NCBI GenBank assembly: GCA_951802195.1
Contig: OX637631.1
Span: forward strand, 930,001-994,000
Length of the DNA stretch: 64,000 bases
Direction of reading: 5' to 3'
Origin: Tausonia pullulans
Lineage: Eukaryota; Basidiomycota; Tremellomycetes; Cystofilobasidiales; Mrakiaceae
Shown piece after piece: positions 27,582-64,000 of this stretch (positions are counted from its first letter, which is position 1; each line of letters begins with the position of its first letter). Under the pieces are notes generated by a model, which was not told where the DNA came from, made no database searches, and saw only the letters and a program-made list of their open reading frames with translations. The position numbers and the translations under genes are program-made.

Positions 27582-30500
27582 CTAACGCCGAGGGTCGCCC
27601 CCAGATCCTCCTCCTCCGATCGGCTGCTGGCCCGGCTGCCTCTCCCCGCTCCGAGGCCGCTGCTGCATCGCGGGCGGGCCGCCATAGTAACCTCCCTGCT
27701 GCGGCGGCAGCTGCTGCTGGTGTGGGTGATGCTGCTGCTGCTGAGGCATGAGGTGAGGGTATCCTTGAGGCGGGTACCCGCTGTACTGCCCGTTCGGCGA
27801 GGGAGGAGGCCGTTGTTGTTGCATGTGCGGGCCCGGCGGTAGCCCAGGTCGCTGCTGGTACCCATGCGGAGGAGGGGGGCCGTACGGGTTGGGGACGGGA
27901 GGACCCGCCGGCGGCCGTCCGTACGGCTGGTGGAGCGAGTGGTGAAAGACCTGCCCGATCTGGGGAATCAACGACGGATTGAAAACCTCGCCGGGTCGAA
28001 TTCCGCCGGACGAGGATGAGTGTTGGAAAACCTGGCCGGGCTGGGGGCCAGGGGAGGGGCGGCTACTTGAGTGAGCTCGGGGACGCTGATGCTCACCGCC
28101 GCCTCCACCTCCGCTGCTGCCGGCGTCGGTGCTGTTGCTTGGACGAGGCGGATGCGGCGAACCAAGATCTCGCTGCTCGCTGGGAGACCTCCGGACGGCG
28201 ACGCCGCCGTTCGAGGACGAGTGGCCGCCGGATGACGACGATGACGAGAACGAGTGGTGTTGGTGAGGATGAGGGGGAGGTCCGCCGCCACCACCGCCAT
28301 AGGGGTAGCCGTTGGGGGGTGAAGTCGGTGACGAGCCTCCGCCTCCGCCAGATGAGCCGTACATCGGCGGCGGGCCCTGGCGGTCCAGGCGGGGCCGCTC
28401 TCGCGCGGCCTCGGGCGATACAACACGCTGTTGGGATGGTGGCGGGCTTTTGGATTGGGGGTACGACTGCGGCGACTGGTGGTGAGGGTACTGCTGGTGC
28501 TGGTGCTGCTGGGAATACTGATGCTGCTGCTGCTGGGTCTGAGGCAATGGCCGTTGGTCCCCCCGGTCGCGAGACCCCTCCCTCTCCCTCTCCCGCTCCC
28601 GAGAAGACGTCGAAGGAGCGTACTCCTTGTCGAGCTGGGCGTTCTGCACCCCGTATTGCGGGGTTCGCACGGGCATCTCGGCCGCCCGTGCTCCAGAGGG
28701 CCGTCCGCCGCCAGCGCCAGCAGCCGGCTCCTTCTTCGTCAGACTCGTCCGCTTGGCCGGCGGGGAGGATGCGGCAGCGGAGGCGAGAGCAGGCTGCTGT
28801 GGTGGACCCGACGAGGACAAAGAGGACGAGGTGACCAAGGCGAGGCCGTTGAGGTAGGCGTTCTTGCTCGAGACGCCCGACGGCGTGCCCTTACTTCCGT
28901 TGCTCGTCACCGCCGCTGCACGAGCAGCCGCCTCAGTGGCAGCGGCAGCGGCGGTGGCCTCCTCAGCGTCAACAGTCGGACCTCCCTCCGCTGCTACTGT
29001 AGCCTCCTCCTCGCCGGCTTTCTTCTTTGCCTCCTCAGCAGCCTTGATCGCCGCAGGGCCTTGGGCCGTCTTGTTGATGACGGAGAGGTACCAAAACATG
29101 AGGTTCGAGATGAGGACCTGTTCGTACAGCGGCCTCCGCGGATTTGCGAGCTTAATATGGCTCAACCGGTAGACGGCACGCTCGACGTGGATCGGATACC
29201 GTGCAAAATTGGAGTAGTGGCCTGACGTCGGGGCGGGTGTCCCAGGCTGATGAGGGGAGGCCACCACTCCAGTCGGCTTAGACGACTTGGATTGGAGGAG
29301 AGCCGTGGCAGCGGCGCGTCCGCCCTCGGAGTTGACGGGCGTCCGGGTCTCGTCATCTTGGGCCTTTTTCTTGCCGCCGAGGAGTGAGCCAAAGAAGCCC
29401 TTCTCCTTCTCGGGCTGAGAGGGTTAATGGGAGATTGGAAAGTCAGTCTCACGATTGCCGCGCTTACAAGGACGGTCAAGCTGTACTCACCTTGCCAGTC
29501 TTCTCCTTCTTCTTGTCCTTGTCCTTCTTGGATGAGAAGAACCCACCTTTCTTCTCCTTTTCCTTGTAGATGCTACTCCCTGCGCTGCTGCTGGCGCTGT
29601 TCCCGCGCTCCATCCGGATTTGGTTCGCCGACGGTGATTGAATGGACGAAGCGGGCGCAGGAAGCTCGGGGGGGGGAGAGGACGACGCCAACTGCTGCTG
29701 CCGCTGGTAGGCCGCCTCATCCGATGGCAATACCAGTGATGTGTCCGACCTCGAAGCAGCTAAAGATGTCGCCGTCGGCGGCCCACCCAACGAGAGCTGC
29801 TTCTCCTGTGTTGGCGTCGTGCTCGTCGGCGATCTCTCAGTGAGCGCATCGGCGGCGTTCTCCTCGCTCTCGCTCTCTATCTCGTCCTGGCCGACGGCGT
29901 GCTGCTGACTGCTGCTCGTCCCAGAGGGGATGGACGTCGTCGATCCGTGGGCGTCGCTACTTGTCGGAGGGGAGGCGCTGCTCTCGCTGCTCTCGGCCGA
30001 GGCGAGCTCTGCGGCGTCTACATCCGCCGAGGAGGTCGTCGAAAATATCGCTGCCTCATCCCCGCTGCTATAGAGCGGGGACGACAACGGCTGGCCGCTA
30101 ATGAGCGAATCGCGGCGGTAGGCGTCGTAGATGGACGTCTCGTCGAGCGACTCGGCCATCGACACTGGCCGGTAACCCTCCGAGCCGGCCTCGCCGCTGC
30201 CAGCTGTCGTCGTCGGTGGAAGAAAGCCCTCATCGGAGAGGGCCGTCCTTCGAAGCTGGCCCGAGAGCCCATCAACAGTGTCGTCCTCCGCGGTCGGAGA
30301 CGTCGACGTGGCCGCCGGCTCGCCCGCAAGGTTGAACCCCGTGAGATGGGCTGTCCGACCTCGTCGAGAGGGTCCAAAGTGCGAGGCGTCACCATCATTG
30401 CCGGCTTTGCGGATCTTGGTGCGGGCCGTCCGGCGGATAAGCGAGGGCGAGCCTGCTCGGGTCGAGATGATAGGCGCGTCGTTCTCGTCAAACTTGACAC

Positions 30501-31633
30501 CGTCGATCGAATCAATGCTCGCTGAGAGCAGCGGGTATGGGGGTGAGAGCGGGTGCGTCACATCAGCTCGGGAGACGTCCACTCAGCTCAGAAAGAGAGG
30601 GCCGGTCAAACTCACCAGCGTCGCTTCCGCCGTTGATGCTCCACGTCCGCTTGAGCATGCTCCTCAGCTTGCCCGGATCATCGCTCTTGGCTGCCTCGTC
30701 CGCAAGTTCCTCGAGCCTCTGTAAGTCCGAGAGCGAGACGCCCGGGTCCTCGTCGGTCCCCTTCGGACTGGAGTAGATGCTCGACCGGGAAGACCGGCTT
30801 CGGGAGAGCGAGAGCGTTCGGATAGGAGGCTCATTCTCGACACCATCACCTGCTCGTGGGGTGTACTGCCTCGAGAGCATCGATTTCTTGCGGCCGAGGG
30901 AGCCACCACCAACGTTGGATTTGGCGTCCTGGAAGGGGAGCGTTGTCCCGTCGGGAGAGGTCGTCGAAGACAGGAATGAAGGCGCCGAGGAGAGCGATCC
31001 TCCAGAGGAAACAGCCGCCGCGGCCTGCTGAACGTGAGCATGAGCGTGCTCCTTGAGGAACGCCCGGAACTCGCCTGGGGCGAGCTCGGGATGAAGGTTG
31101 GCAGGCACCCAGAAGAGGGTCGAGACGGCCTCGTCCTCGTTCACAGCCGCGTCGTCCGCGTCCTCGTCTTCGCCGCCTCCTCCTCCCTCGCTGCTGCCTG
31201 AGACGTCCCGCCGACTGGACGTCCTTTTGATGAGTCTCGCCGCTGCATCGGACGAGGGCGAGCGTGCGAGGATACCGTTCCCTGCCGCGCCACCAGTGCC
31301 GCCTGCTGCCGCAGTCCCGCCTCCTCCAGCGCCGCCCGCTCCTCCCCCGGCACCCGCTCCTCCTCCTGAACCGATGGACATCGGTCCCAGATCAGCAACC
31401 TCCAACGTGCTCTGCGCGGCCGTCATCGTCGGTACAGGCAAGTCCGGGTCGAGCTCGAACCCGGGTGGGCCTCCTGCGCCGCCAAGAGAGCCGGATCGTC
31501 GGCGGAGCGAGCGGACGGCCGAAAGCTCGCGCTCGACTTCTCGCTGGGAGGAGGGCGAGGACGGTGGGAGGGGGAGATGCCGAGGTGGAGGGTCGTCGCG
31601 ACTTGGGCGTCGGTGGGGCTGGGCAGTCGTCAT
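27582..31633 (-). CDS. Zds1-like protein (PP2A/Cdc55 regulator family)
   Basis: Three exons: 30616-31633, 29491-30581, 27582-29414; 1,313 aa; start at the ATG at 31633 (MTTAQPHRRPSRDD). Family blocks seen: LFWVPANLHPELAPGEFRAF near residues 168-190, RKKSMLSRQYTP near 250, GKLRSMLKRTWSINGG at the exon 1 end, a Lys-rich GGFFSSKKDKDKKKEK, and RYPIHVERAVYRLSHIKLA then RRPLYEQVLISNLMFWYL near 770-815. In yeasts Zds proteins bind the PP2A B subunit Cdc55 and affect mitotic entry, Cdc14 release and polarity. The 500 residues after the last block are a Pro/Gln/Gly/His-rich tail that the ascomycete proteins do not have. A plausible 3' splice site (CCTATAG) just upstream of the ATG suggests an intron in the 5' UTR. 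Confidence 0.8.
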
Positions 31634-33516
31634 GGATGCTGACCTATAGGGATGAGATGAGAGGGAAGGCTGGGGCGGAGAGATAGGAGAAGAGAGCCAA
31701 AGAGAGAGAGGTGCGAGGACCGGAGGCTGAAGTACGGCGAAGAAGAAGAGCTGAACGAGAAATAGAGCGGCAGGGATGTCAGAAGCGATTCTCAGTAGCA
31801 AAAGAACGGCGACAGATGACAGAGAGCGAAGCGAGAGCAACGAGGAGGGGAAGGAACGAGCAAGCAACAACGAGAGAACGAGACGCAAGGGCTCCGTCAC
31901 GCCTCATTGACCGGCGTCAGCAAGCAAGCACGCGTTGCCTCCTCTCTGACTCTTGTCTCGCCCGCCCGAGACGGGGCACACGATGAGAGGGATGAATGGC
32001 TTGACAGCATCGAGCCTGTCCTCTGTGCTTTCCTGTGCTTTGCGCGTGTGTGTGCCGACCCGTGGCGGGCCTGCACGCGCAGAGGAGGCGCGAGCGACTC
32101 CTCTCCCTCCGGGGCGAAGCGGCGGACAGGGCGGGAGTCGTGTGCGAGGAAAGCCGGGACCAACCTCGGGCGAGTCCAGTCGCTAGCTCTGGCCCGGGGA
32201 TCGAATGAGAGTGGTGAACGAGGGAGGGAGGGGAGAGGGTGAGAGAGGAAGTGCGACGAGGCGCGAGAAGGCCGGCGGCGATGGAGAGGGTTGAGGAGGC
32301 TCGTCGGTCGTTGCGTGTGTGGGTGGCCGTTTGGGAGAGCGGCCGCGCCGAAGGGCGGAGAGAAGCGCTGAGAGCGAGCGCCAGAGCGCACGGGCAGAGG
32401 CCGATGTTCTCTCTCCCTTTCTGGTCATCATCGGTCGGTCACCCCTGGCGTTCAGTGGCCGCCATGCTCCTCCTCGTGATGGGGCAGGCCGTCCCGGATG
32501 CAGCAGCCAGAGAGGCAGCCAAGAGTGAGCGCCCGTCGACCAGTCCTCGAAGCTCGACCCCCTGACAGAGGGTCTCGACAAGACGGAGTTGATCCCTCGC
32601 CGAGGGGAATCGGCTCCTCGCTGACATCAAGATGAGGGAGCGGAGAAAGCGAAATGCCGGTGAAAGGAGCCCCATCCGCGTCTTCGCTTCAACCTGTACG
32701 CTGGTTGGCCATCCATGCAAGGAAGGAGAACAGTCCAGGCTGGGCTGAAAGGGGCGGGCGGGCTGCGTCGCCCCGTCGGAACATCGCGAACAAACGAGGG
32801 TTTTGCGCGCGAATACAAGCTTGGGCAAGGAAACCGAGGGCGATTCGAAGCAGGCGGATGTGGATCCAGGGCTTTACTGCCAGCCTCCCCCGCTGTCACT
32901 CACCACAGCTCTGCTTCCCTCGCTGTTCACTATTTTTGCTTGAGACCTGAAATTTTTGATGGCTTGTCCAAGCAAGCGGTGGAAAGTCGGGGCGTCATCA
33001 TCAGAGTGCTCAAGATCATGACACAACGGGCGCGAGCAATTTTGCGAACGCGCTTGAAGAGAGTTGACACCTGCCAGCCTGGGTGCGAGCGACTTTGCGA
33101 GTTCGTCACTCTTCTTCCCATTCCTCCCCGTTCGGCACACCGCCGATGCCATTAATATCCCCCTGCGTGTGTCCGCAAACAGCTCTCCCAAGAAGGGAAC
33201 CCACTCTCTGGTGGAGAGCGGACCCCCGGTCTCCCCCGGACAACCAGGGCCTTCAACCTTCCTTCTCTTGAGCTCCTACGCCTCTTGAGAGGAGGAAGAT
33301 GGGGGAGAGAGGGGGATGGCTATAGAAAAGGGCTTGTAGACTGGAAGGCGTAGTCGTTGGATCATCCCAAAAACGAAGAACTAGATACACAGGAGACAGT
33401 TCGGCGATGGACGTAATCGCAGAGCCATCTCCGGCTCGCCCATCATCGGCCCACCATTTCAAGGGCAAAAGAACTGTCCTAACCGTCGTTTCCAACTCCA
33501 GCTGGCAAAAGGAGTT
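31634..33516. other. Gene-less stretch upstream of the Zds1-like gene
   Basis: 1.9 kb, the left part being promoter and 5' UTR of the Zds1-like gene. Many short overlapping frames exist on both strands but none has normal codon use, splice signals in phase, or a family motif. The right end borders the tRNA island. Confidence 0.5.
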
Positions 33517-33589
33517 CTCTCAGCGACGGGTTCGAACCGTCGACCTACAGATTAACAGTCTGACGCTCTACCAACTGAGCTAGCCGAGA
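33517..33589 (-). tRNA. tRNA-Asn (GTT)
   Basis: Reads 5' TCTCGGC on the minus strand. The acceptor stem closes with GCTGAGA, the D-arm has TAGCTCAGTTGGTAGAGC, the anticodon loop is CTGTTAA (GTT), and the T-arm is GACGG-TTCGAAC-CCGTC. No intron. A run of four T for polymerase III termination lies about 7 nt downstream (AAAA at 33507-33510 on the plus strand). First of a minus-strand tRNA island. Confidence 0.93.
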
Positions 33590-33649
33590 TAATTGATAGA
33601 CAAATCAGGCAAAACAAGTTAATATGGCTCAATCATCTCCACTGGTCGA

Positions 33650-33747
33650 CATTCGCTTTCCTTCTATCTAGCTACGAATCATCATCTCTCATAGGGTTAC
33701 CTCGTTCTCTACGTATAACTCATGACTTAGTTACAAAAACAAAAAAC
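33650..33747 (+). mobile_element. 5'-truncated LINE 3' end (copy a)
   Basis: About 70 bp (TATCTAGCTACGAATCATCA through GTATAACTCATGACTTA) match the 3' terminus of the LINE at 60 kb nearly base for base, followed by an A-rich tail (ACAAAAACAAAAAAC). Only the last 100 bp of the element are present. It lies about 60 bp upstream of the 5' end of tRNA-Asn and in opposite orientation to it. Confidence 0.88.
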
Positions 33748-33993
33748 AGGGGTTGGGGATGTTGCCGGTAGTGATGACGGTGGCGGTGGTGGAGGGTCAG
33801 GAGCATTGGGAAGAGATGACAGCTCGTCTCTCGCATGGTCAGCTTGTGACTTATGCCTTTTTGTGTTAAGCCTTCCTCTCCACCCTCCCTGGCAAGAATG
33901 TTTCCCTCTTCTTCCCTGACATACGTTTTTGACGTGTTCTGCTTGTTCCCTAAGACAACCAGGGCTGCAGTCAACAAAAAGATATTGCATCCA

Positions 33994-34065
33994 TATCAGG
34001 ACCGGGAATTGAACCCGGATCTAGGCGGTGTTAACACCTTGTACTAACCATTATACGATCCCGAC
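33994..34065 (-). tRNA. tRNA-Val (AAC)
   Basis: Acceptor stem GTCGGGA pairs with TCCTGAT (two G-T pairs). The D-arm is GTATAATGGTTAGTAC, the anticodon stem is AGGTG/CGCCT with loop TTAACAC (AAC), and the T-arm is CCGGG-TTCAATT-CCCGG. No intron. A TTTTT terminator follows about 14 nt downstream (plus-strand AAAAA at 33976-33980). Confidence 0.9.
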
Positions 34066-34150
34066 TTTGGATGGTACAGTCAACACAAACACCAACTATG
34101 CATGCTGTCCAGAAACTGTTCCTCTATATTTGCAGCTTCCTCGACCTCTC

Positions 34151-34190
34151 GTTGAATACAAAAAAAAGTTGACTTAAATACAAAAAATAA
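34151..34190 (+). mobile_element. Very short LINE 3' tails (copy b, two in tandem)
   Basis: The sequence TTGACTTAAATACAAAAAA at 34168-34186 matches the terminal ATGACTTAAATAC plus A-tail of the LINE at 60 kb. Just before it stands a second similar piece (TTGAATACAAAAAAAA at 34152-34167). These look like extreme 5' truncations. They lie about 85-125 bp upstream of tRNA-Val. Each match is short, so the call depends on the context. Confidence 0.5.
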
Positions 34191-34454
34191 TTGACTCACG
34201 TCGTTTAAACTCTCAAGCTAAGGGTGATTCGATAGTCTAAACAGAAACCAAAAAAACAAAGAAAAAAACGAAAGAAAGGAAACCTGTCAGAAATGGCTCC
34301 TTGAATCCCGTTCACTCGCATCTACCTGACCCCTATTCGTTCGCTCTAGTTCTACTCAACACAAGATAGAGGGGAGTGATCAGCGGTCTGTATGCAGCTT
34401 GCCAGCTCCAATCGCGGCTCCCCACGACGTCGAACTGAAGCAAAAGGAAACGTT

Positions 34455-34557
34455 AGCCCCACGGGGGGGTCGAACCCCCAACCTTCAGATCACCTTTGAA
34501 GTAACGATTTCATCCCTGTGTAAGAGTCTGACGCTCTACCGATTGAGCTAGCAGGGC
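34455..34557 (-). tRNA. tRNA-Lys (CTT) with a 30-nt intron
   Basis: The 5' part begins GCCCTGC and has the D-arm TAGCTCAATCGGTAGAGC and anticodon stem TCAGA with loop CTCTTA. A 30-nt intron (34491-34520) interrupts after A37, the canonical site. The 3' part resumes ATCTGA (closing the anticodon stem), with T-arm TGGGGG-TTCGACC-CCCCC-like pairing and acceptor end GTGGGGC plus T. A TTTT terminator follows about 10 nt downstream. Confidence 0.93.
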
Positions 34558-34654
34558 AAGAAATCCAAGCTCGGAAGCTCTTGAGTTGGCACGTGACCGT
34601 TCAGATTCACATCTGTCACTCAGCACGAAAGGAAGCAAAACCGCATCTCAGACA

Positions 34655-34835
34655 CACCAGCAGTTGAGCACGAGGTGGATGGCTGGCAGTGGCCAAAAGG
34701 CTGCTACTGTTGTCGGCGCCGTCGTGATCCTGGGTGAAAAGCAGGACAGGGGTGTAAAATATGGGTAGACCATAGACCATAACCACCGCTTGATATAGCC
34801 TGTCATCTTGATATGTACTGTTAGATTTTCCTTAC
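34655..34835 (+). mobile_element. LINE 3' fragment, internally deleted (copy c)
   Basis: Matches the end of ORF2 and the 3' UTR of the LINE at 60 kb in the same sense: GAGGTGGATGGCTGGCAGTG, then GATCCTGGGTGAA, then AGACCATA...CCACCGCTTGA, then a diverged or deleted stretch to GATTTTCCTT. The true 3' end is missing and is replaced by a C-run and the dispersed repeat at 34836-34933. Starts about 100 bp upstream of tRNA-Lys, again in opposite orientation to the tRNA. Confidence 0.85.
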
Positions 34836-34933
34836 CCCCTCCCCCCCCCCCCCCGTTCTCCTCCCCTGTCTCTTTCCCTTTCGCTTGCTCGCTCTCCCTA
34901 GCTTCTCCTACGATTCCCTCGGCCATGTCCCAT
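34836..34933 (+). repeat. Dispersed repeat, copy 2 (C-run plus Zds1 3' UTR-like segment)
   Basis: A run of about 15 C is followed by some 66 bp nearly identical to the reverse complement of 27112-27216, i.e. to the sense strand of the Zds1-like gene's 3' UTR. It is joined directly to LINE copy c, in the same sense as that copy. Confidence 0.85.
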
Positions 34934-35089
34934 TTCCACCCAATTCCTGAACCTGCGGGTCTAGTCCGCCATATACAGGTCCGCCACACGGACCAAGGCG
35001 GAGTGGCTGCACGCGATCCCTCCTCTTTCCCTTTACCTCTACGACCGCCCCTAGACCTCCCCCTCCGCCTGAGACGGCAAAACGAGCGT

Positions 35090-35161
35090 TATCGGGGACT
35101 AGTTCCAGACCCAGACCCACAGATAATAGTTTGACATTTTGGCAATTGAGCTAGCCAACAG
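35090..35161 (-). pseudogene. Decayed tRNA-Asn(GTT) copy
   Basis: Aligns along its length with the intact tRNA-Asn at 33517-33589: GGCTAGCTCAATTG for GGCTAGCTCAGTTG, GTCAAACTATTATCTGT for GTCAGACTGTTAATCTGT, and a degenerate T-arm. Several of the differences are G-to-A or C-to-T changes. The anticodon loop, D-arm pairing and T-arm are damaged, so it should not be functional. Confidence 0.7.
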
Positions 35162-35566
35162 GGAGACAGTGAAGTTGCAGCCCTATGGTGCCTGACTTCG
35201 ATGACCCTTCCGTGCAGTTCCCGCCTCTGACAGGCCAGAGCCGTCTGGTACACGCCTTTCCCTACGAATCGCTCTCCAGAAGGGATTGGAACATGTATCT
35301 TGAATAGTCAAGCTTGACGTTGCCCGCCGAGGTGTGAGGGATTCGAGGATCCAGAGCAGGCGGACAGTGGCGGCTTCCCGCTTACCATAGTGACCGTCTA
35401 CCCCCACCCGTCCATCGATCGCCAATCCAATTTCTCACCCTATACGTATATGCAGTCGTCACACGAAGGATCGTTAGCTATTGCTCGTACATTTGATAGT
35501 GAGCTGGCTATCCAGTCTCCTGATATTCCTGTCCTCGCAACACACGCGCGACCTTTTGCGCTGGCC

Positions 35567-35756
35567 CATGGAGATCCTCCTCGATCTGCTCGAGCCCTGC
35601 GTTGCTCTCGCCGACCCGATTAATGTGTTATTCCGGTGCAAGGCTATGCGGGAGATGCGCGCATTGCGTCTTGTGGCGCATAATTGGCCCAAGATTCGAG
35701 GGATAAAGAGAATGGATGAGGAGAGGGGCGACAGCAAAGTAGATGCGTGGAACTGA
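35567..35756 (+). pseudogene. Possible F-box motif remnant
   Basis: The frame reads WPMEILLDLLEPC ... MRALRLVAHNW before a stop at 35754-35756, recalling an F-box (LPxEI ... RLVCRxW). No start, introns or downstream repeats of an F-box gene were found, and the codon use is ordinary. It may be a relic inside the tRNA island or chance. Confidence 0.2.
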
Positions 35757-36162
35757 AGTGTTGGAGGTGGCATAGGTTCGCTTCGACGTCTTGGGCAGAT
35801 TGTCGAGTCCAAATGATAGACAAAGTGCAGAACAAACATCTACGATGAACTGAGCCTGTCATGGACGAGAGACGAGAAGGATGCGAAAGTAAGGAGTGCG
35901 GGACAATGCGGCGGAAACACGACCGAAGATAAGGAAATGCCGAGCGGCGAGGGAGAGGCTACACAGGTGCGGAGCAGCCGAGGTGGCGAATCTACGAGTT
36001 CTGACACCCGCCTCCTCGATCTCCTCCATGTGCACACAGCAGATCTGTTCAGTATTGAATACCTGCGAATCTAGCACGAGTTTCGCAGGAATCGTCAACC
36101 GACTGCCTTGTCTCTAATCTGATCCCACACATCCCAGGGGCAAAAAGATAATGTCGTTGTCT

Positions 36163-36242
36163 TCAGAACCGAGTGTACTAACCATCTATACTATGCAACC
36201 GATTTGAAGGTCGCACCCGGACTCGAACCGAGGTCGCTCGGA
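36163..36242 (-). tRNA. Circularly permuted tRNA-Gln (CTG): 3' half precedes 5' half
   Basis: Read on the minus strand, the 3' half comes first (36242 down to 36208): TCCGAG, variable CGAC, T-arm CTCGG-TTCGAGT-CCGGG, acceptor TGCGACC and discriminator T. After a 7-nt spacer (36201-36207) comes the 5' half (36200 down to 36163): acceptor GGTTGCA, TA, D-arm with A14, G18G19 and A21 in place, anticodon stem CTCGG and loop TTCTGA. Joined 5'+3' they give a 73-nt tRNA-Gln with a 7-bp acceptor stem (one G-T), 5-bp anticodon and T stems and the loop TTCTGAT. The break falls between 37 and 38, the normal intron site. No 5' half lies upstream and no second 3' half lies downstream. A TTTTT terminator follows (36142-36146). 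Position 32 (T) can pair with the A three bases before the 3' cut, as tRNA splicing endonuclease requires. Confidence 0.88.
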
Positions 36243-36354
36243 ATTGTGACTTGATGAAACAACATGCTTCATTTGAGACAGACAATTTGATGAAAGAACA
36301 GCTAAAAGTAAAATTCAAGTACCTGCGCTGAAATCCGTTCCTCACTTTCTTCTC

Positions 36355-36460
36355 TTTCCAAGTCGTTGCGCTGAACATCCAGAGTATGAGGCACTTCGCT
36401 TTCTTTTTGGGCAAGGGGAACGAACGCACTTCAAAGCGACCAGACGTGGTCCTTCCAACT
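36355..36460 (+). mobile_element. Possible LINE ORF2 5' remnant
   Basis: The frame reads VVALNIQSM ... KRPDVVLP, the usual start of an APE-type endonuclease in LINE ORF2. A 31-bp segment (36358-36388) matches the start of the 60-64 kb ORF2 at about 25 positions, including GAACATCCAGAG. It lies about 115 bp upstream of the permuted tRNA-Gln, opposite in sense. Short and degenerate. Confidence 0.35.
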
Positions 36461-36855
36461 CTCTTCTCTCTTACCCTCACATACTCTTTATTCTTTCTTC
36501 CTATACATCCTTTTTCCCCTCTCACCTCTTTCGGGGAGAGCGCGCGCTTTCCCTCCCCACGTCGGCTCTCTCCCATTGACCACGGCCATTGTGCTTGACC
36601 TTATGGGTGTCTCAATGGGTAGCATACGATAGTATGAATGAATGACAAAAGAGTCGCTGCCGTGGTGCTCCTACTCGCGACGCGCGCTGCGCGCATGCTT
36701 GGTCGCTCACTGATCCACGGTCGGTTCTCTTGCGCGGCTTTCCGCGCTCTTTCCCTGCGGACAGGTCCCACAGTTCCTGCGATCTTAGGTTTGCCGCTGT
36801 CGATGTCAAGCAACAACCAAGGGGGGAAACGTCTAGCATCTCCATCGATCACGCT

Positions 36856-39684
36856 TCAATCCCACACCCCAACCTCCTTGAGGACGCCCGCAAGCCGCTT
36901 GTACTCGAGGAGGAGTTCGGCGACCTCGTCGATCCTCAGCTCGCCCGCCCGACACTCGAGGAACCGCTTGTTCGGACCGGCGACGACATCCTCCTGCGGC
37001 GAGGACGTAGAAGTAGCCGGCGGCGGGGGCGTGTGGAACGTCGACGCTCCGCCACCGAGAAGCGAGGCCCGGCGGGATTGGGACGACGCTCCACGTGTCA
37101 GGGGCAGCGATCCCGGCGTAGGCGAGGGGGGCGAAGGGATGGGCGAGGAAGAGGTGGCGACGGTGGCAAAGAGACCCGCCTGGGAGAAGCCAAGGGGTCA
37201 GTCACTCGCGCTACGACGCCCAAGATGTCAACAGCTTACTTTGGGCAAACTTGTACTTGAGCTGTTGGGCGACCCAGCCTCGAGGGTGGATGCACCCCCA
37301 CCACTACCTGACCCGAGCCGGGCGAACCGCTCCGAGATGCTCATCCGCTCGCTGCGTTCCTGCCCAGCCGATGGGTTCCCGACGTTCGTGGGAGGCATGT
37401 ACGACGACGACCTCCGACTCGAGGCGACGCTCCGGACGCTCCTCAGGGAGCGAGTGTCCGCTGGGCCAGCGTCGTCGTCGTCGCTCGACCGCATCCCCCG
37501 GTCGCGCTCGTCGTCGTCGTCGCTGTCGTCCTCGCGCTCGTAAATCGATCCAGGCCGACTCGAAACCTCAACCATCTCCCGCCTCGGCCCCCATTCACTC
37601 GCCGTCCGAGAGGACGCGATAGAAGAGTTGGAGCTTCCTGCTCCCACGGACGACGCAGACCCACCCGCACCACCCCCCATCGTCGACCCGATGGACCCAC
37701 CGAGCAGAGCGCTCCCGCTGGCGGACCGCTCACGGCTCCCAATGCCCGCGACGCTCGCAGTGAGGCTGGCGATGGAGAACGCCGAGGCCCGTCTTGGTGG
37801 ACCACCCGGTCGAGTGGCGCCGCCTGCCCCACCTGCTCCTCCTCCCATGTCGCCGACAACGCCCCCCGGGAGCTGAACCAAGAGTCCCTCAGCGGCAGCG
37901 CCACCGAGAGCATGTCCCGTGTTGACAAGCGACCGTAGGGCGCCCAAGCCGGACCCCACGACGTTGTTGACTCCCGAGACGGCCAGCTCCCCGACGGCGC
38001 TAACCTTCCCGCGAAGCCTCGACTGAGCAGCCGCCACCTGCGCAGCCGACCCCGTCGTCGCCGCCGAGATGGACGACAGGTCTCTCTGGAGGTCCGGGTC
38101 GATCGGTGCGAGCTCCCCGACGGCGAGGACCTTGTCGGATCCACCGAGCCCGAGCGACGCCGGGTCGACGTTCTCGAGAAACTCGACGACGGCCGTGATG
38201 TTGACGAGCGCGTAGGAGGCTTCGCCGGAGAAGCACATCGACGCTCGGTAGCGCTGGATGTAAAGCAGGTGCGAGACGAGCCTGAAGGGGTTGGCCTTGA
38301 CGACGCTGAAGATGATCTGGGGAAGGGGGACCGGATTGGTTCAGTTATTAGAGCTTCTAAGCCGGAGCGCTCAGGGCAGGAGGACGCACGATGGGCAGGA
38401 GCAAGTCCGCTCCCGAAGCACCGCCCTTTTCACGATCTCCTCCTGTCGAAGATACGACAGATCGGACCGAGGCGCTCGAAGGCGCGACCTTCTCATCCTC
38501 CGTCTCTTTCCTCTCCGGCTTGGCAGGAAGCAACACGCTGTCGCCCATCGCCTCTCCGACAGCGACCGAGTGCTCCCCCTCCGACTCAACCCCATGAGCT
38601 TTGCTTGCCTCGGTCGTCGCCTCCTCCTCCTCCTTGTCGTCTTCCGCCGGCTCCTCCAGCACGAGCGCAGGCACCTCCTCGAGCTCAGGCTGTGTCAACT
38701 CCAGCGACGTCGACCCGCGGGGCGTCCTCTCTTCGTCGGTCGTCGTCGTCGGCCGGCCAACCTCACCATCTGCCGGCTTCTTCTCCGACCTCGTCGACGT
38801 TGCCTTTGTCGGCGAGAAAGGCGGCGACGTCACTGTCGGCGGGCTCGGGATCCCCGGTGGCACCCTCCCATCCTCCGACTCGGACGCCTCGGATGCGGCC
38901 ACGGGAGGTTTGTATGGCTCGCCCTCTGGGCGGAGGCGGATCGCCGGGAGCTCACGGAGACGCTCGATGACGAGTTGGTGGGCGCGGACGAGGACTTGGG
39001 TTTGCGCCTTGGGGGACTGACACGAGGGGGCTTGGAGCTTCGTGAACTCTGCGGCGCGCGTTGGAAGGATGGAGGTATGTTAGCGAAAAGACCGAGAGGG
39101 AAGGTGGGCAGGAGAGGCAACGCACCCTTGCCGACGGCCTTGACAATCTCGTCGAGCCCTTGAACGACCTCTTCGTCCAGCGTTCCGTCTGGATGGGTGG
39201 TGACGACCCCGAGATGGCCCAGGCTAAGATCAAGCATGTTGAGCGCGGCGATCCGCGAGGCAAGCGCTGCGTCGTGCTTGGGGTCGTTGGAGGTCGGTGG
39301 CGAGAAGAGCAAGTTGTGACCAAGCCCCAGGAGAACTCTCTCGACGCGATCGACGCCCTCCAACGCGCGCTTCTCCACCTCTCGCTCCCGCCGCTCAGCA
39401 GCGGTCTTGTCCTCACCTTCAACAGCATAGCTCTCCTTCGCGTACACCGCGTACAAGTCGTTATAAACGAGTGTAAAGAACGCCTGGTACGTCGAGGAGC
39501 AGACTTCGGGGTCCGACCAGGTTGAGGGAGGCGGGAACGTCGAGAGGGTAGGGACGGCGGGGACCTTGGAGTTGGACTTGGAGGAGAGGGTCGGGGTGAC
39601 AGAGGGGTGGGACCGGGACTGCGAGGCGGGAGGGTGGGGAAAGCTAGCGAATCTGAGGAACCGAGGGAAGAGGTGGAATCACTC

Positions 39685-39716
<32 letters not shown>

Positions 39717-41604
39717 GCTGCAACTAGACGCACCTCTTGACAGCTGCCACAATCCCCGTTGGAAGGCCCTCGAGCTCCTTCGTCATCCACTCGCGGAGCG
39801 CCCTCCCCGTAGCCTTCTCCATATCGGCCCGCTTGAGCGGCCGGTCGACCCCCCAAGCGGAGATCAGGACGTCGTCTCGAGGCTTGTCCGTCGTCGAAGG
39901 CGCTGTCGCCCTTGCTGCGTCGGATGAAGTGACAGAAGGGGACGTTGGAGAGGACGGGGAGGAGGCCGGGATGTACTCGGCTGCAGAGCTAGCTCGCCTC
40001 GGGGGGTGTCCGGTGCTGGTCGTCGTTCCTGAAGACAATTCGGTAGCCTCGGGCTCCACGACGACGGGAATCTCCTTCTCCACCGACGACGGCGATGTCG
40101 GCGGCGGTGGCGTCGGCTGTCGTTCCGGAGGAGCCGACTTCACCGGTGCAGCCCTCGACCCAAAGAACCCAGCGAAAGGGTTGGAGATGCGCGTCGCAGA
40201 GGCTGGGAGCGCCGCGCTCACGGCTCTTGGGCGAGAGGTAAGCGACGGCGGGAACAGGGAGGACGAGGTGGAAGTGGGGGCTATGGGGATTGGGGGAGGG
40301 AAGGGCAGGACAGAGGAGTAGAGGAGAGGGGTGAGTGTTGGGAAGGAGGGGGATTGCTGTTGGGTGAAGTTGATGGGTGGGATAGTGAGATGGGCGAGGG
40401 TGACCCTGGGGATAGAGGCGCAGGTGGTGCGTGAGTCGGAGCGGGATAGCGACAGTGAGATTGTCACATGAGGCACACTCACGACCGAGAAGCAGGATCC
40501 ATCAGGCGCGCCATGATGGGCCCGTTGGCCGGGATGAAAGAGCAGAACGTGAGGGCGTCACTGCGAAGTTCATGTGTCAAGTCAGGGGAGCGCGCTTCGA
40601 CGGGGCCTCCCTCGCTCTCACGCACCTTGACATCGTCCCGACGAGACCACTGAGTGTGACAACGAGCGCCGGGGTGGTCTCGGAACTCTCTGATGTTCCG
40701 CCCGTGGCAAAGACGAGATGCTCTCGGACGACCTCAGGCGTGATCTCGACGGAGGACGCCGGCGTCGCGAACGGGAGGAGCAACGTGAGCTGAGATGATC
40801 GGAGTGGAGAATCGACCATCAGTTTCAAGCGAGCCATAATAGCCCCTCTCCCTGCCCGTCCAATCTTACCCTTTTGACAAGCACGAGATCCTTCACCTCC
40901 TCCCAAGCGCGTTCTCCGCCCTTGGCCACGAGCGTCTCGAGCATCTTCATCCCGAGCGAGTCGTTACCGAGTCCGACGCCCCGCTGGGCCTCGGCCTTGA
41001 GGCTCGTCAGCTTGAGCCGGTCTTTGAGGCTCGTTGTGCGGCTTAGTGCAGGACTCGTGTTGCCGGCGGTTGTCGACACGGTCGAGGACGTGCCAGAGCC
41101 AACGTCGTCGGTGTCCCCTCCTCCTCCCCCGGCGGGCGATGATCCTCTTGCGATCGCGCCACTGTTGCTGCCCTCCGACGTGGCGACGGAAGACGACGAG
41201 ACGGAGCCGGCGACTGGGGAATCCTGGATGACGTCGGTTGAGTCGAGCTGGGACGTTGAGATGGTCGGTGTGACCGGGTTGGAGAAGAGCGGAGGGATCG
41301 TCGTCGTCGCTGACGTGGTGGTCGGGGAGGACATCGACGACCCGGCTCCACCAGCTCCAACAGTCCCAGTGGAGGAATGGCCAGGAAGGGACGAGATGGA
41401 ACCCCCGGGTGTCCTCCGTCTGGGTGCGTACGGCAAAGGGTGGAGCGTCGTCTCTGGCGACGAGTCGGGCCCCCCGCCGAGAGGGTGCGACGTCGAGGGC
41501 GTGAGCGCGCCGGCTTGATCGGAAGAGGAGGGCGACGAGCTTGGCCGGAGGAAGCGGTTGGCGGAATTGCGACCTAGGGAGGTTGAATTGAAGATGCCGG
41601 ACAT
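36856..41604 (-). CDS. VPS9-domain Rab guanine nucleotide exchange factor
   Basis: Eight exons: 40870-41604, 40626-40789, 40483-40560, 39734-40405, 39126-39643, 38390-39048, 37240-38316, 36856-37179; 1,163 aa, phases agree. Start at the ATG at 41604 (MSGIFNSTSLGRN). VPS9 domains activate Rab5/Vps21 GTPases at endosomes. Key parts: LVYNDLYAVYAKE near residue 590, GADLLLPIIIFSVVKANP near 935-955 with the catalytic Asp, RLVSHLLYIQRYR, and GEASYALVNITAVVEFLEN with the catalytic Tyr. An acidic, low-complexity insert of roughly 150 residues splits the domain just before GADLLLP. A Ser-rich C-terminal part ends with a helix (RIDEVAELLLEYKRLAGVL). The N-terminal segment with LTLLLPFATPASSVEIT and FCSFIPANGPIMARLMDP is conserved-looking but not recognised. 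Confidence 0.87.
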
Positions 41605-60243: not shown

Positions 60244-63200
60244 TCACCCAGGATCGATGGCGGCACCGAGGGCAGTACCAGCCATCTGGCCACTGCCAGC
60301 CATCCACCTCGTACTCGACTGCCAGAGTGTCCGTCGGATTGTGGACGCGATCTTGCGGATTTCCTCGTCCGTGACAGGATCGAGGGCTGGGATCTTGCTG
60401 TACCTCCGCCTCCGGACGAATCGCCATGTCCGGGCTACAAAGATGCAGTGGAAGAGGAAGACCGCCCTCGGCGGCGACGGTGTCGGGCAGACAAGCGTCT
60501 GGAGAGAGGGAGGATGGGAGGGGAGTGAAGGCGAGGCACGTGCAGCAGCAGCAGCCGACCAGATAGCGCGCACGACGGGACACGGCTCGTCGAAGAGGTG
60601 GAAGAAGGACTCAACAGGGGCCGTCAGGCACAGCGCACATCGCTTGGACCTGTTGTGCGGTGTAGCGGTTCCGTCGGCGAGGAATGGCGCAGCAGTGTGC
60701 TTTCCTGGGTGGAGGCTGTACAGCGAGAAACGGTGGGCCAAGTCGACGTCTTCGGGCGACGCTTGGGACACGGCCTTGAGCAAGCACCACTGACGCTTCC
60801 AATCGATCTTGGTAAGCGCCGGGAAGTGGTCCTGCCATCCCTTTGGGATGATGAGGTCGTGGTTGGCTAGAGTCCGACTGTGTGCGCCGTGGGGCTCACG
60901 AGGAACGTTCAGCCGGCCAAGGTTTGTGTGGATAGGGAGGAAACCCAGCCGCAACTGGCTATCTGTACCGAACGTAGACATCCAGTGGACAGCGTTCCTC
61001 CAGCGGTCTTGATTCCAATAGCTCATGTCAAAGCTGATTTCTTCGAACCATGCCCGGAGGTAAGCCTGCCAACGTGCAGGGAGAGCTCTTCGGAGCCTTG
61101 GGATGGCATTCCACCAGACGGCTGGGAAGAACCATTGACCTTCCACTGGGGAAAGAAAAACGCCTAACCAGCTGAAGTTGGCGGGCCGGGGTCCACTGAT
61201 GAACTCTCCATCCCTGAAGATGGTGCGAGTCAGCATTCTATAAGCTTCTGGATCGAGGCTCATGGTATGGATGATACGCTTGCGAATGCGGATCGATGCG
61301 GGTAGCTCCGGTCTGAAGAGTACATCGCCAGCCCACTGGGCGCGCGCTTTGATGAGCCGGAAGCGGAGTGGCGTGAAGCCGAAGCCGCCGAGGTCTCGAG
61401 GGGTTTCTAGGCGTTCCCTGCTGACGTCGTGGTGTTTAGATCGGTAGAGGGACTTGTAGGCCGTTGCCTCGAGGTCTGTCAGGATATCGTCTGGGCACGG
61501 CAGGAAGCGGTCCAGGTAGATGACCTTCGAGTAGATGTACTGGTTGATGACGTTGCATCGCGCAAGGAGAGGGAGATCGTGCAGCGGGATGCGAGCAAGA
61601 CGAGCCTTCAGCTTGCCGATGATCTCTCGCCAGTGAGCAGGCCCGTTGACCGTGCGACCGCATGGAACGCCGAGGAAGTCGAATGAAAGCGTTTGGACAC
61701 GCCACTCGTGGTACCTCGTAGGCGCATCCGTCCGGCATGACCCTAGAGGATACAGGAGTGACTTCTGGTAGTTCAGCTTGCTTGCTGCGGCTTTCTCGTA
61801 CTCTCGGAGGCAGACCGTCGCCTCATCGACCTCCGACCAAGTCCGACACCGGATACTGAGATCGTCTGCAAAGAGGAGGACCTTCCGCTCATGTAGAGGG
61901 GGCGGATTGGCCGGTGGGAGGCGATGGCGGAGCATACATGCCAGCGGCTCCAGGAGGAGGGCGAAGATCGTCGGTGCCGCGGGATCGCCCTGTCGGACAC
62001 CAGACCGGATGTCGATGGCTTGGCCCATCCATCCGTTGATCATGAGCCGAGCTGTCTGAGAGGTCATCGTTGAGGTGATCCACGCTGCGGCGCGTGGGCC
62101 GAACCCCATGTGGCTGAGGCAGGGGCCAACGAAGTCGTGCGACACTCTGTCGTATGCCTTCTCAAAGTCGACTTGGGCGAGGACGCCAGGCAGGAGGTCT
62201 TCGTCGTCTATGGCGAGCTGAAGAGAGGAGATGTTACGACCCGAGTCGCGGCCAGGGAGGAAGCCTGTCTGGTCCCCGTCGATGAGGGTGTCCACAACGG
62301 TGAGCAGGCGGCTGTTGATGGCAAGGGAGAAGATGCGCGCGTCAACGTTGATGAGCGAGATCGGACGATAGTTGGCAATCTGATCGCGATCTCCCTTCTT
62401 CTTGAAGATCAGGTGGATATGGGCCTCGCGCTGTGAGGCTGATCGGAGGCCTGTCTCCGGGACGAGGTTCAGTAGGCTGAGGAGGATCGGTCCGACGACA
62501 GCCCATGTGGCCTGGTAGAACTCGACGGGGATCCCGTCACTTCCTGGTGTCTTGTTACGGTTCGATCTGAACGTAGCCCGCCTGAGCTCGTCCGGTTCGA
62601 AGGGTTTCTCGAGGGTCCGACTCTGGGAGTCGTCGAGTGTGTTGGTGACATATTGGAGGGCGTTGGCGTGCTCGGCAGCTGGCGTCGTCTTGGTCTCATA
62701 GAGAGTCGTGTAGAAGGTGTGTGCTGTAGCTAGAATGCTCTCGTTGTTTGCGATGGCTGCGGCTGCTGGGTTGTCGAGAGGCCGCAGGGCTGCGATAGTG
62801 TCGGCCTGGCGGACGATCTTGAGTCGCTGCTTGACGGCATACTCGCTTGTGTTGGCAGGTTCGAGATGGGCTCGAAGAGCGTGGCCTTGGAGGATCGACC
62901 TGTGTGGATCCCCGCCCGACACTCTGCTCATTCGGGCGAGGTGTCTTGAGATGTCTGATGCGTGATCCGCTATCTGAAGCTTGGTCTCGTCCCAGGCCTC
63001 GAAGGGGTCCCTGCTCTCTGTAAGCGCATCGTGGTACCACTCGGGGATATGGAATAGGAAGTATTCGACAAAACCGGTAATCTTCAGAAGGTGAGTTCCG
63101 ATCTTGTACGATCCGGGACCGTGCTGTATTGCACCGGGGAAGGTGAGGCTGAGTGCGATCGGCTTGTGGCTAGAGTACAGGTGGCCGGTCGGACGTGGTA

Positions 63201-63921
63201 GGAAGCGCTGTCGCACGGCTCGGCTAGCGAGTAGAGGCGACAGGTAGAAGCGATCAATGCGGCGATCTGCTCGCGTGATGCCAGTATAGTTGGTGTATTC
63301 GCGCTGAAGCGGGTATAGGGATCGGTATGGGTCAGAAAGGGCAAAGTCCCGGGCCAGCCGGCACATTTCCTCCTTTCCTGCGTTCTGGGTAAATTGGCTC
63401 ATCCCGTCGAGGTAGCTGTCCTCCACACAGTTCCAATCCCCGCCCAGAAGGAGAGGAATGTCAGAGTGGGCAGGTATCTTGCGAGATAGAGTAGAGATGA
63501 ACTCCTTTGTCGAACGGCCGTTTGTTTGGCTGTCTCGGCAGGGGACGTAGACTGCAGCCAATCTGACGGCTTCGCCGGCTATGGTGAAGACAGCATCCGT
63601 CAGGTTGGTTCGTAAGATGGGGGAGGAGCGGGATATGGATCTGATCCTAGTTGGTGGGGTATCGGGAGGAAGGAATCGAGAGGCATGTCGCCAGAGGATG
63701 GCAGTCTGGCATCCGACCGTAAAGATCGAGCCGAAGCCCATATCTTCACATTCGGCTGTCCAGGTAGCTACCTGATCTGGTGTTGTGCATGCCACTTCTG
63801 AGAGAAGGTATATGTCAGCCTTGGATCGTGAATATAGAGAGAGGAGGAGACTGCGGGCGCGATCTCGCGTGAACACCCTCTGGATGTTCGCCGCGACGAT
63901 CTGGACATCGTTGTACACCAT
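60244..63921 (-). CDS. LINE ORF2: endonuclease and reverse transcriptase
   Basis: 1,225 aa in one open frame. The N-terminal 235 residues are an APE-type endonuclease (VAANIQ, LLSEVA, AAVYVPCRDSQ, GGDWNCVED, RIDRFYLS, SSHKPIAL where SDH is usual). Reverse transcriptase covers about 445-730: KTPGSDGIPVEFY, NYRPISLINVDARIFS, GFLPGRDSGRN, QVDFEKAYDRVSHDF, SGVRQGDPAAPTIFALLLEP, and the catalytic LLFADDLSI. The C-terminal part has CALC...HLFDEPC, a zinc-finger-like pattern seen in this group. No RNase H domain is visible. The ATG overlaps the ORF1 stop by one base (TAATG), suggesting termination-reinitiation. Confidence 0.93.
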   Translation of the reverse strand: MVYNDVQIVAANIQRVFTRDRARSLLLSLYSRSKADIYLLSEVACTTPDQVATWTAECEDMGFGSIFTVGCQTAILWRHASRFLPPDTPPTRIRSISRSSPILRTNLTDAVFTIAGEAVRLAAVYVPCRDSQTNGRSTKEFISTLSRKIPAHSDIPLLLGGDWNCVEDSYLDGMSQFTQNAGKEEMCRLARDFALSDPYRSLYPLQREYTNYTGITRADRRIDRFYLSPLLASRAVRQRFLPRPTGHLYSSHKPIALSLTFPGAIQHGPGSYKIGTHLLKITGFVEYFLFHIPEWYHDALTESRDPFEAWDETKLQIADHASDISRHLARMSRVSGGDPHRSILQGHALRAHLEPANTSEYAVKQRLKIVRQADTIAALRPLDNPAAAAIANNESILATAHTFYTTLYETKTTPAAEHANALQYVTNTLDDSQSRTLEKPFEPDELRRATFRSNRNKTPGSDGIPVEFYQATWAVVGPILLSLLNLVPETGLRSASQREAHIHLIFKKKGDRDQIANYRPISLINVDARIFSLAINSRLLTVVDTLIDGDQTGFLPGRDSGRNISSLQLAIDDEDLLPGVLAQVDFEKAYDRVSHDFVGPCLSHMGFGPRAAAWITSTMTSQTARLMINGWMGQAIDIRSGVRQGDPAAPTIFALLLEPLACMLRHRLPPANPPPLHERKVLLFADDLSIRCRTWSEVDEATVCLREYEKAAASKLNYQKSLLYPLGSCRTDAPTRYHEWRVQTLSFDFLGVPCGRTVNGPAHWREIIGKLKARLARIPLHDLPLLARCNVINQYIYSKVIYLDRFLPCPDDILTDLEATAYKSLYRSKHHDVSRERLETPRDLGGFGFTPLRFRLIKARAQWAGDVLFRPELPASIRIRKRIIHTMSLDPEAYRMLTRTIFRDGEFISGPRPANFSWLGVFLSPVEGQWFFPAVWWNAIPRLRRALPARWQAYLRAWFEEISFDMSYWNQDRWRNAVHWMSTFGTDSQLRLGFLPIHTNLGRLNVPREPHGAHSRTLANHDLIIPKGWQDHFPALTKIDWKRQWCLLKAVSQASPEDVDLAHRFSLYSLHPGKHTAAPFLADGTATPHNRSKRCALCLTAPVESFFHLFDEPCPVVRAIWSAAAAARASPSLPSHPPSLQTLVCPTPSPPRAVFLFHCIFVARTWRFVRRRRYSKIPALDPVTDEEIRKIASTIRRTLWQSSTRWMAGSGQMAGTALGAAIDPG

Positions 63922-64000
63922 TATTCTTCCATGTCCTCGGCTTCAGCCAAGGTCACGAGGGTGTGCTCGATGGATGCCTGGGAGGACGGCTTGGAGGGGA
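63921..64000 (-). CDS. LINE ORF1, last 25 codons (partial)
   Basis: The only frame that stays open to the window edge and ends at the TAA overlapping the ORF2 start reads PSKPSSQASIEHTLVTLAEA then EDMEE and stop. Being the region just upstream of ORF2 it is taken as the C-terminus of ORF1 (usually an RNA-binding protein). Too short for a domain call. Confidence 0.6.
   Translation of the reverse strand, partial: PSKPSSQASIEHTLVTLAEAEDMEE

Follow-up and report, generated by a model that had tools for sequence, protein, structure and literature searches.

A multicopy family of circularly permuted, putatively functional tRNA-Gln(CTG) genes in a basidiomycete yeast

Circularly permuted tRNA genes, in which the 3′ half stands upstream of the 5′ half, are listed for six algae and one archaeon (34 genes; PMC3978253), a taxonomic range also given in PMC4033280, and those of the green alga Auxenochlorella were added in 2025 (PMC12633428). 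The tRNA-Gln(CTG) gene listed for the red alga Cyanidioschyzon merolae shares with the locus described here its isoacceptor, the order of its halves, and its type II break between positions 37 and 38 (with a spacer of 31 nt), and the permuted genes of this alga likewise carry a T stretch past the 5′ half (PMC3978253). Unlike C. merolae, for which that source lists one such gene, the present genome is fungal and holds 21 copies. A TATA-like box is described upstream of most C. merolae permuted genes, and TFC1 and TFC3 homologs are given as not identified (PMC3978253), whereas the fungal copies are without a clear TATA box. In prasinophyte algae and the Bigelowiella nucleomorph (Maruyama et al. 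2010, via PMC3978253), all but one of the listed genes are broken at 37/38, as here, and spacers measure 5 to 64 nt; however, these genes belong to photosynthetic lineages, encode Ser, Leu, Cys, iMet, Asn, and Arg tRNAs, and number at most two per anticodon and organism in that list. A circular intermediate has been reported for red and green algae (PMC3978253). Reversed halves with short spacers (1 and 7 nt) are also listed for Thermofilum pendens (Chan et al. 2011, via PMC3978253), an archaeon whose genes, unlike those described here, are broken at 59/60. Auxenochlorella is an alga and not a fungus, although the case is similar in that its permuted genes emerged after an incomplete tRNAscan-SE set (PMC12633428). 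No fungal permuted tRNA gene was found in the literature searched, which comprised titles, the starts of abstracts, and passages, most subscription papers being outside this scope. One Phaffia genome paper gives 49 tRNAs for 12 anticodons and one Mrakia paper 130 and 119 tRNAs; the passages holding these counts are silent on permuted genes.

We scrutinized a 64,000-nt stretch of a yeast contig (the window), on whose minus strand (36242-36163) a 3′ half, a spacer, and a 5′ half of tRNA-Gln(CTG), of 35, 7, and 38 nt, follow one another in that order (Table 1). Rejoined in the usual order, the halves were called by ARAGORN as a tRNA-Gln(ctg) of 73 nt in which every stem of the cloverleaf is present (acceptor of 7 bp, D of 4 bp, anticodon and T of 5 bp each). 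In its native order, the gene was called neither by ARAGORN across the whole window nor by Rfam cmscan at 30000-40000; nearby ordinary tRNA genes for Asn and Val were called by both. The intron of the neighboring tRNA-Lys(CTT) gene indicates that this genome has tRNA introns at the same site as the permutation break. Further along the window (60244-63942, minus strand) lies a 1,232-aa open frame of LINE-like look, with an RVT_1 match and an endonuclease match under its cut-off. The original prediction for this locus had proposed the reversed halves, the break at 37/38, a normal tRNA-Gln cloverleaf on rejoining, a B box before the A box, a terminator past the 5′ half, and a fungal host. The halves carrying the two boxes do stand in that order, and the remaining proposals are all supported, either here or by the data that follow.

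Table 1. Positions of the permuted locus, a neighboring tRNA gene, and a decayed copy elsewhere in the genome (window positions unless a contig is named)
Feature	Position	Strand	Remarks
3′ half, T38 to discriminator T73	36208..36242	-	TCCGAG...GCGACCT, 35 nt; carries B box; upstream
Spacer TCAAATC, 7 nt, between T73 and G1	36201..36207	-	
5′ half, G1 to A37	36163..36200	-	GGTTGC...TTCTGA, 38 nt; carries A box and anticodon CTG; downstream
TTTTT run, probable Pol III terminator	36142..36146	-	starts 16 nt past 5′ half
60-nt leader, 5′ of 3′ half	36243..36302	-	A at -3 can pair with T32 (A-I pair); other three bulge-helix-bulge (BHB) positions unpaired
Ordinary tRNA-Lys(CTT) with anticodon-loop intron	34455..34557	-	Rfam; ARAGORN with introns allowed
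22nd, decayed permuted copy (pseudogene)	C18:231633-231764	+	spacer 59 nt

Given that the described cases are largely algal, the identity of the host was also considered. An algal host was rejected: no chlorophyll a/b-binding protein was found at E 0.001, two window frames matched Zds_C and PH_10, and the organisms named among the best 120 of 561 Zds matches were all basidiomycetes. Zds_C and PH_10 are known as fungal families. An RPB1 exon was 83% identical to that of Phaffia rhodozyma, the other organism-named matches listed lying near 64%; among further clusters, one (P0121) was 100% identical over 97% and two were 82 to 85% identical over about four fifths. Judged from these matches, the host is in or near Cystofilobasidiales.

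Searching the whole genome (23.86 Mb in 21 contigs) at the DNA level recovered at least 21 intact permuted copies in 12 leader groups, counts that are lower bounds because the genome searches score best candidates only and favor near-identical copies. The copies are located on contigs C1, C11, C12, C14, C16, C17, and C18. The last of these, 644 kb long, holds nine of the 21 together with the decayed copy. In every intact copy, and in the decayed one, a single 3′ half stands upstream of a single 5′ half on the same strand, and all 21 are broken at 37/38. The same permuted order in 21 places is explained neither by chance nor by a single mis-assembly. The original prediction, in which this family went unnoticed, had named an assembly error, or a lack of junction reads joined with a normal gene elsewhere and decay of the locus in related strains, as what would overturn it, and had called for other tRNA-Gln(CTG) genes to be counted. 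An assembly error is very unlikely given 21 places in 12 leader groups, the window copy is intact, and the count gave 21 intact genes, all permuted, with no ordinary one found, although a diverged gene could escape such searches.

The 21 copies comprise three mature sequences, five being of the window type, one intermediate, and 15 having the acceptor GGCGGTG/CACTGCC; all three, once rejoined, were called tRNA-Gln(ctg) by ARAGORN. Spacers range from 4 to 46 nt, known permuted genes being listed with 1 to 74 nt (PMC3978253). Only nine of the 73 positions vary among the copies, eight of them in the acceptor stem. Outside the gene body, the leaders of the 15 identical copies are diverse, 74 of 105 pairs being less than 60% identical (random 60-mers, 50%, SD 7). 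The 12 leader groups and 13 trailer groups differ in membership. Leaders and trailers are also combined differently among the C18 copies, which suggests that the family spread via recombination inside the conserved tRNA body; gene conversion could account in part for the sameness of the copies. One proposed origin of permuted tRNA genes is tandem duplication of an intron-bearing gene (PMC3978253); for 15 of the 21 copies, the surrounding 3 to 8 kb were inspected and no remnant outer halves were found.

Covariation was found between the two halves. Four of the seven acceptor pairs are changed on both sides (one of the four being a U-G to G-U swap), and all 63 pair cells are standard, dropping to 30 to 43% in slid structures. 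This acceptor covariation, drawn from three sequences only, was matched by 5 of 500 shuffles, and the number of pair types, which is not unusual, by 142 of 500. The covariation nonetheless links two DNA segments whose order is reversed. For an independent score, a covariance model was built from 13 non-Gln tRNAs of the same genome, permuted in silico; 18 tRNAs had been prepared, of which three Gln were excluded on purpose and Met and Ile for bad alignment. The 21 permuted loci scored 44.6 to 56.3 bits, and the model's other 57 matches, every one of which overlaps an ordinary tRNA gene, scored at most 28.9 bits. No permuted gene of another isotype was found by the model in the 98 sources scanned, a small part of the genome. 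When whole precursors were folded by free energy, the minimum was not the cloverleaf in the runs inspected, and the energies were left unused; the rejoined Gln tRNAs also miss the cloverleaf minimum, since their anticodon and T arms cross-pair through CTCGG/CCGAG.

Transcription signals were compared across copies, ordinary tRNA genes, and background sequence. Every one of the 21 copies has a run of four to seven T at 7 to 17 nt past its 5′ half; TTTT occurs in 10,225 of 307,068 background 25-nt stretches (3.3%), and 48 of 55 ordinary tRNAs have a T run within 20 nt. This run probably ends transcription. No gene body, spacer included, contains TTTT, and in four of the 21 copies TTTT spans the border between leader and 3′ half, where it could halt Pol III early. 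The last 10 nt of the leader are richer in AT (0.63 across 17 distinct leaders) than those of ordinary tRNAs (0.51) or background (0.39), and TATA-like boxes are in weak excess, being present in 5 of 17 distinct leaders, 10 of 55 ordinary tRNAs, and 33 of 426 background stretches. A substitute A box upstream was not found, A-box-like matches with two mismatches allowed numbering 0.71 per 60 nt in leaders versus 1.25 in background. Pairing between leader and trailer was weak and depended on leader length; for leaders of 20, 30, 45, and 60 nt, P was 0.73, 0.036, 0.036, and 0.08 when set against re-paired loci and 0.46, 0.005, 0.010, and 0.030 when set against shuffled leaders.

Signals and machinery for splicing were considered next. 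With leader positions -3 to -6 set against loop positions 32 to 35 (the BHB register), in a test devised after the leaders had been inspected, a mean of 2.73 of four pairs formed over the 12 leader groups, compared with 2.31 in the best of 22 other registers; shuffled leaders gave P = 0.0001, rising to 0.0008 once related leaders were merged. The A-I pair 32:-3 occurs in nine of 21 loci and seven of 12 leader groups. It also occurs in all six ordinary introns scored (two of them Lys), whose borders were assigned manually; the introns of Met, Leu, and Ser were excluded as their borders could not be fixed. One of the scored intron tRNAs was read as tRNA-His, ARAGORN calling it Thr or SeC. The A-I pair is present in the window copy, which, with one of four BHB pairs in all, is the family's weakest, level with one other locus. 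Ordinary tRNA genes of this genome carry anticodon-loop introns at 37/38. The genome also encodes a Trl1-type ligase domain on C6 and tRNA-endonuclease exons on C1 and C7, both matched exon by exon and not as whole genes.

Another reading, which we consider very improbable, would make these loci defunct relics or a mobile element derived from a tRNA, and an ordinary gene that the searches missed would be the true source of tRNA-Gln(CTG). One decayed copy does exist, groups of copies share flanks, and the concentration of nine copies on a single contig would also fit such an element. The decayed copy came from a pattern search allowing three mismatches, and more such copies may have escaped the DNA searches. 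It is changed at 14 of 73 positions (8 of 35 in the 3′ half and 6 of 38 in the 5′ half), has six broken pairs, and lacks TTTT in the 37 nt past its 5′ half; on these features it has the appearance of an unused copy. Against relics stand 21 intact copies with three sequences, compensated acceptor pairs, and a T run each, and against a mobile element the 12 leader groups, which leave no shared body beyond the tRNA. A missed ordinary gene is favored by the counts being lower bounds, and by the anticodon-arm pattern, which at up to three mismatches gave 141 matches versus 97 for the control, the tRNA check covering the nine loci with two mismatches. However, those nine held no tRNA according to ARAGORN, and genome-wide the gapless pattern had no match with fewer than two mismatches. 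A search with the rejoined tRNA returned 42 pieces, all from the 21 loci, of which 41 start or stop exactly at 37/38; the 42nd overruns this border by 2 nt because its trailer opens with the same two bases. The exact 5′ halves recovered in pattern searches numbered 21, and all of them came from the permuted loci.

Glutamine decoding in this genome was further considered from its codons and other tRNA genes. Three long open frames contain 85 CAG and 24 CAA codons, an excess of CAG that puts a CTG tRNA in demand, although decoding of CAG by a TTG tRNA is conceivable as well. A pattern for the 5′ half of tRNA-Gln(TTG) had no exact match genome-wide, in a search that recovered the 21 CTG 5′ halves and, at one mismatch, the decayed one. 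Among eight other matches at one mismatch, C2:318666-318686 is a possible tRNA-Gln(TTG) 5′ half with the loop CTTTGA. The exact permuted-Gln pattern had no matches in viral and prokaryote contigs, where a fungal gene is hardly expected. At least 10 tRNA-Trp(CCA) genes with one shared tRNA body lie on C1 and C15, many for an amino acid with a single codon.

A further reading, which we regard as most unlikely, takes the loci for ordinary tRNA genes with very long introns, splicing running from the 5′ half in one copy to the 3′ half in the copy that follows downstream. Two tandem copies on C18 are 865 nt apart, and ARAGORN, allowing introns of up to 1,000 nt, reports an 836-nt tRNA-Gln across both (L090:3432-4267). 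This call is a by-product of two adjacent permuted copies, and an error that annotation pipelines may repeat. An intron-containing gene has its 5′ half upstream of its 3′ half, which is not the order at the permuted loci. The T run that closely follows every 5′ half also argues against long introns, as does the presence of only one 5′ and one 3′ half in the 64-kb window and, likewise, in the 3-kb stretches around ten copies. A split tRNA, whose halves are separate transcripts joined in trans, has scarcely any probability in our view. The halves are apart in the DNA, and separate transcription is conceivable, but they are not at separate loci: all 21 copies have both halves on the same strand, with 4 to 46 nt between them and a gene body free of TTTT.

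We return to the permuted reading, in which the window locus is very probably a tRNA-Gln(CTG) gene that is functional and circularly permuted (type II, 37/38). The 21 copies found appear between them to provide this isoacceptor for the yeast, whose place is in or near Cystofilobasidiales. By analogy with algae, the product of the window locus would be processed through a circle, and we infer that it would be transcribed, cut, circularized, and charged as follows. Pol III would make a single RNA that runs from the leader through 3′ half, spacer, and 5′ half into the trailer and ends in the T run. The arms would then fold so that the open ends sit in the anticodon loop, and cuts by the tRNA splicing endonuclease at 37/38 would remove leader and trailer. 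Position A37 would be joined to T38 by a Trl1-type ligase, giving a circle in which the spacer, 7 nt long in the window copy, would be the acceptor loop. RNase P and RNase Z would excise this spacer, and CCA would be added last.

The broader reading, which we hold to be likely at a lower level of confidence, is that the whole tRNA-Gln(CTG) supply of this yeast comes from permuted genes only, in at least 21 copies spread by recombination inside the tRNA body, a permuted gene having replaced and outgrown its ordinary ancestor. Decoding of CAG would then lean on a circular RNA made by the Sen/Trl1 machinery and on a Pol III promoter with reversed A and B boxes, and this would be the first fungal case as far as our searches show. 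Neither of the tRNA finders run here, ARAGORN and Rfam, calls the permuted genes of this yeast, so similar cases may have gone unnoticed in other fungi. If a basidiomycete yeast has such a family of 21 copies, permuted genes would be able to originate in a further kingdom of eukaryotes, one whose splicing machinery resembles that of budding yeast, and to displace the ordinary genes for an isoacceptor there. Genetics of the yeast type could reach two questions, namely how transcription proceeds when the B box precedes the A box and how the circle is cut open again.
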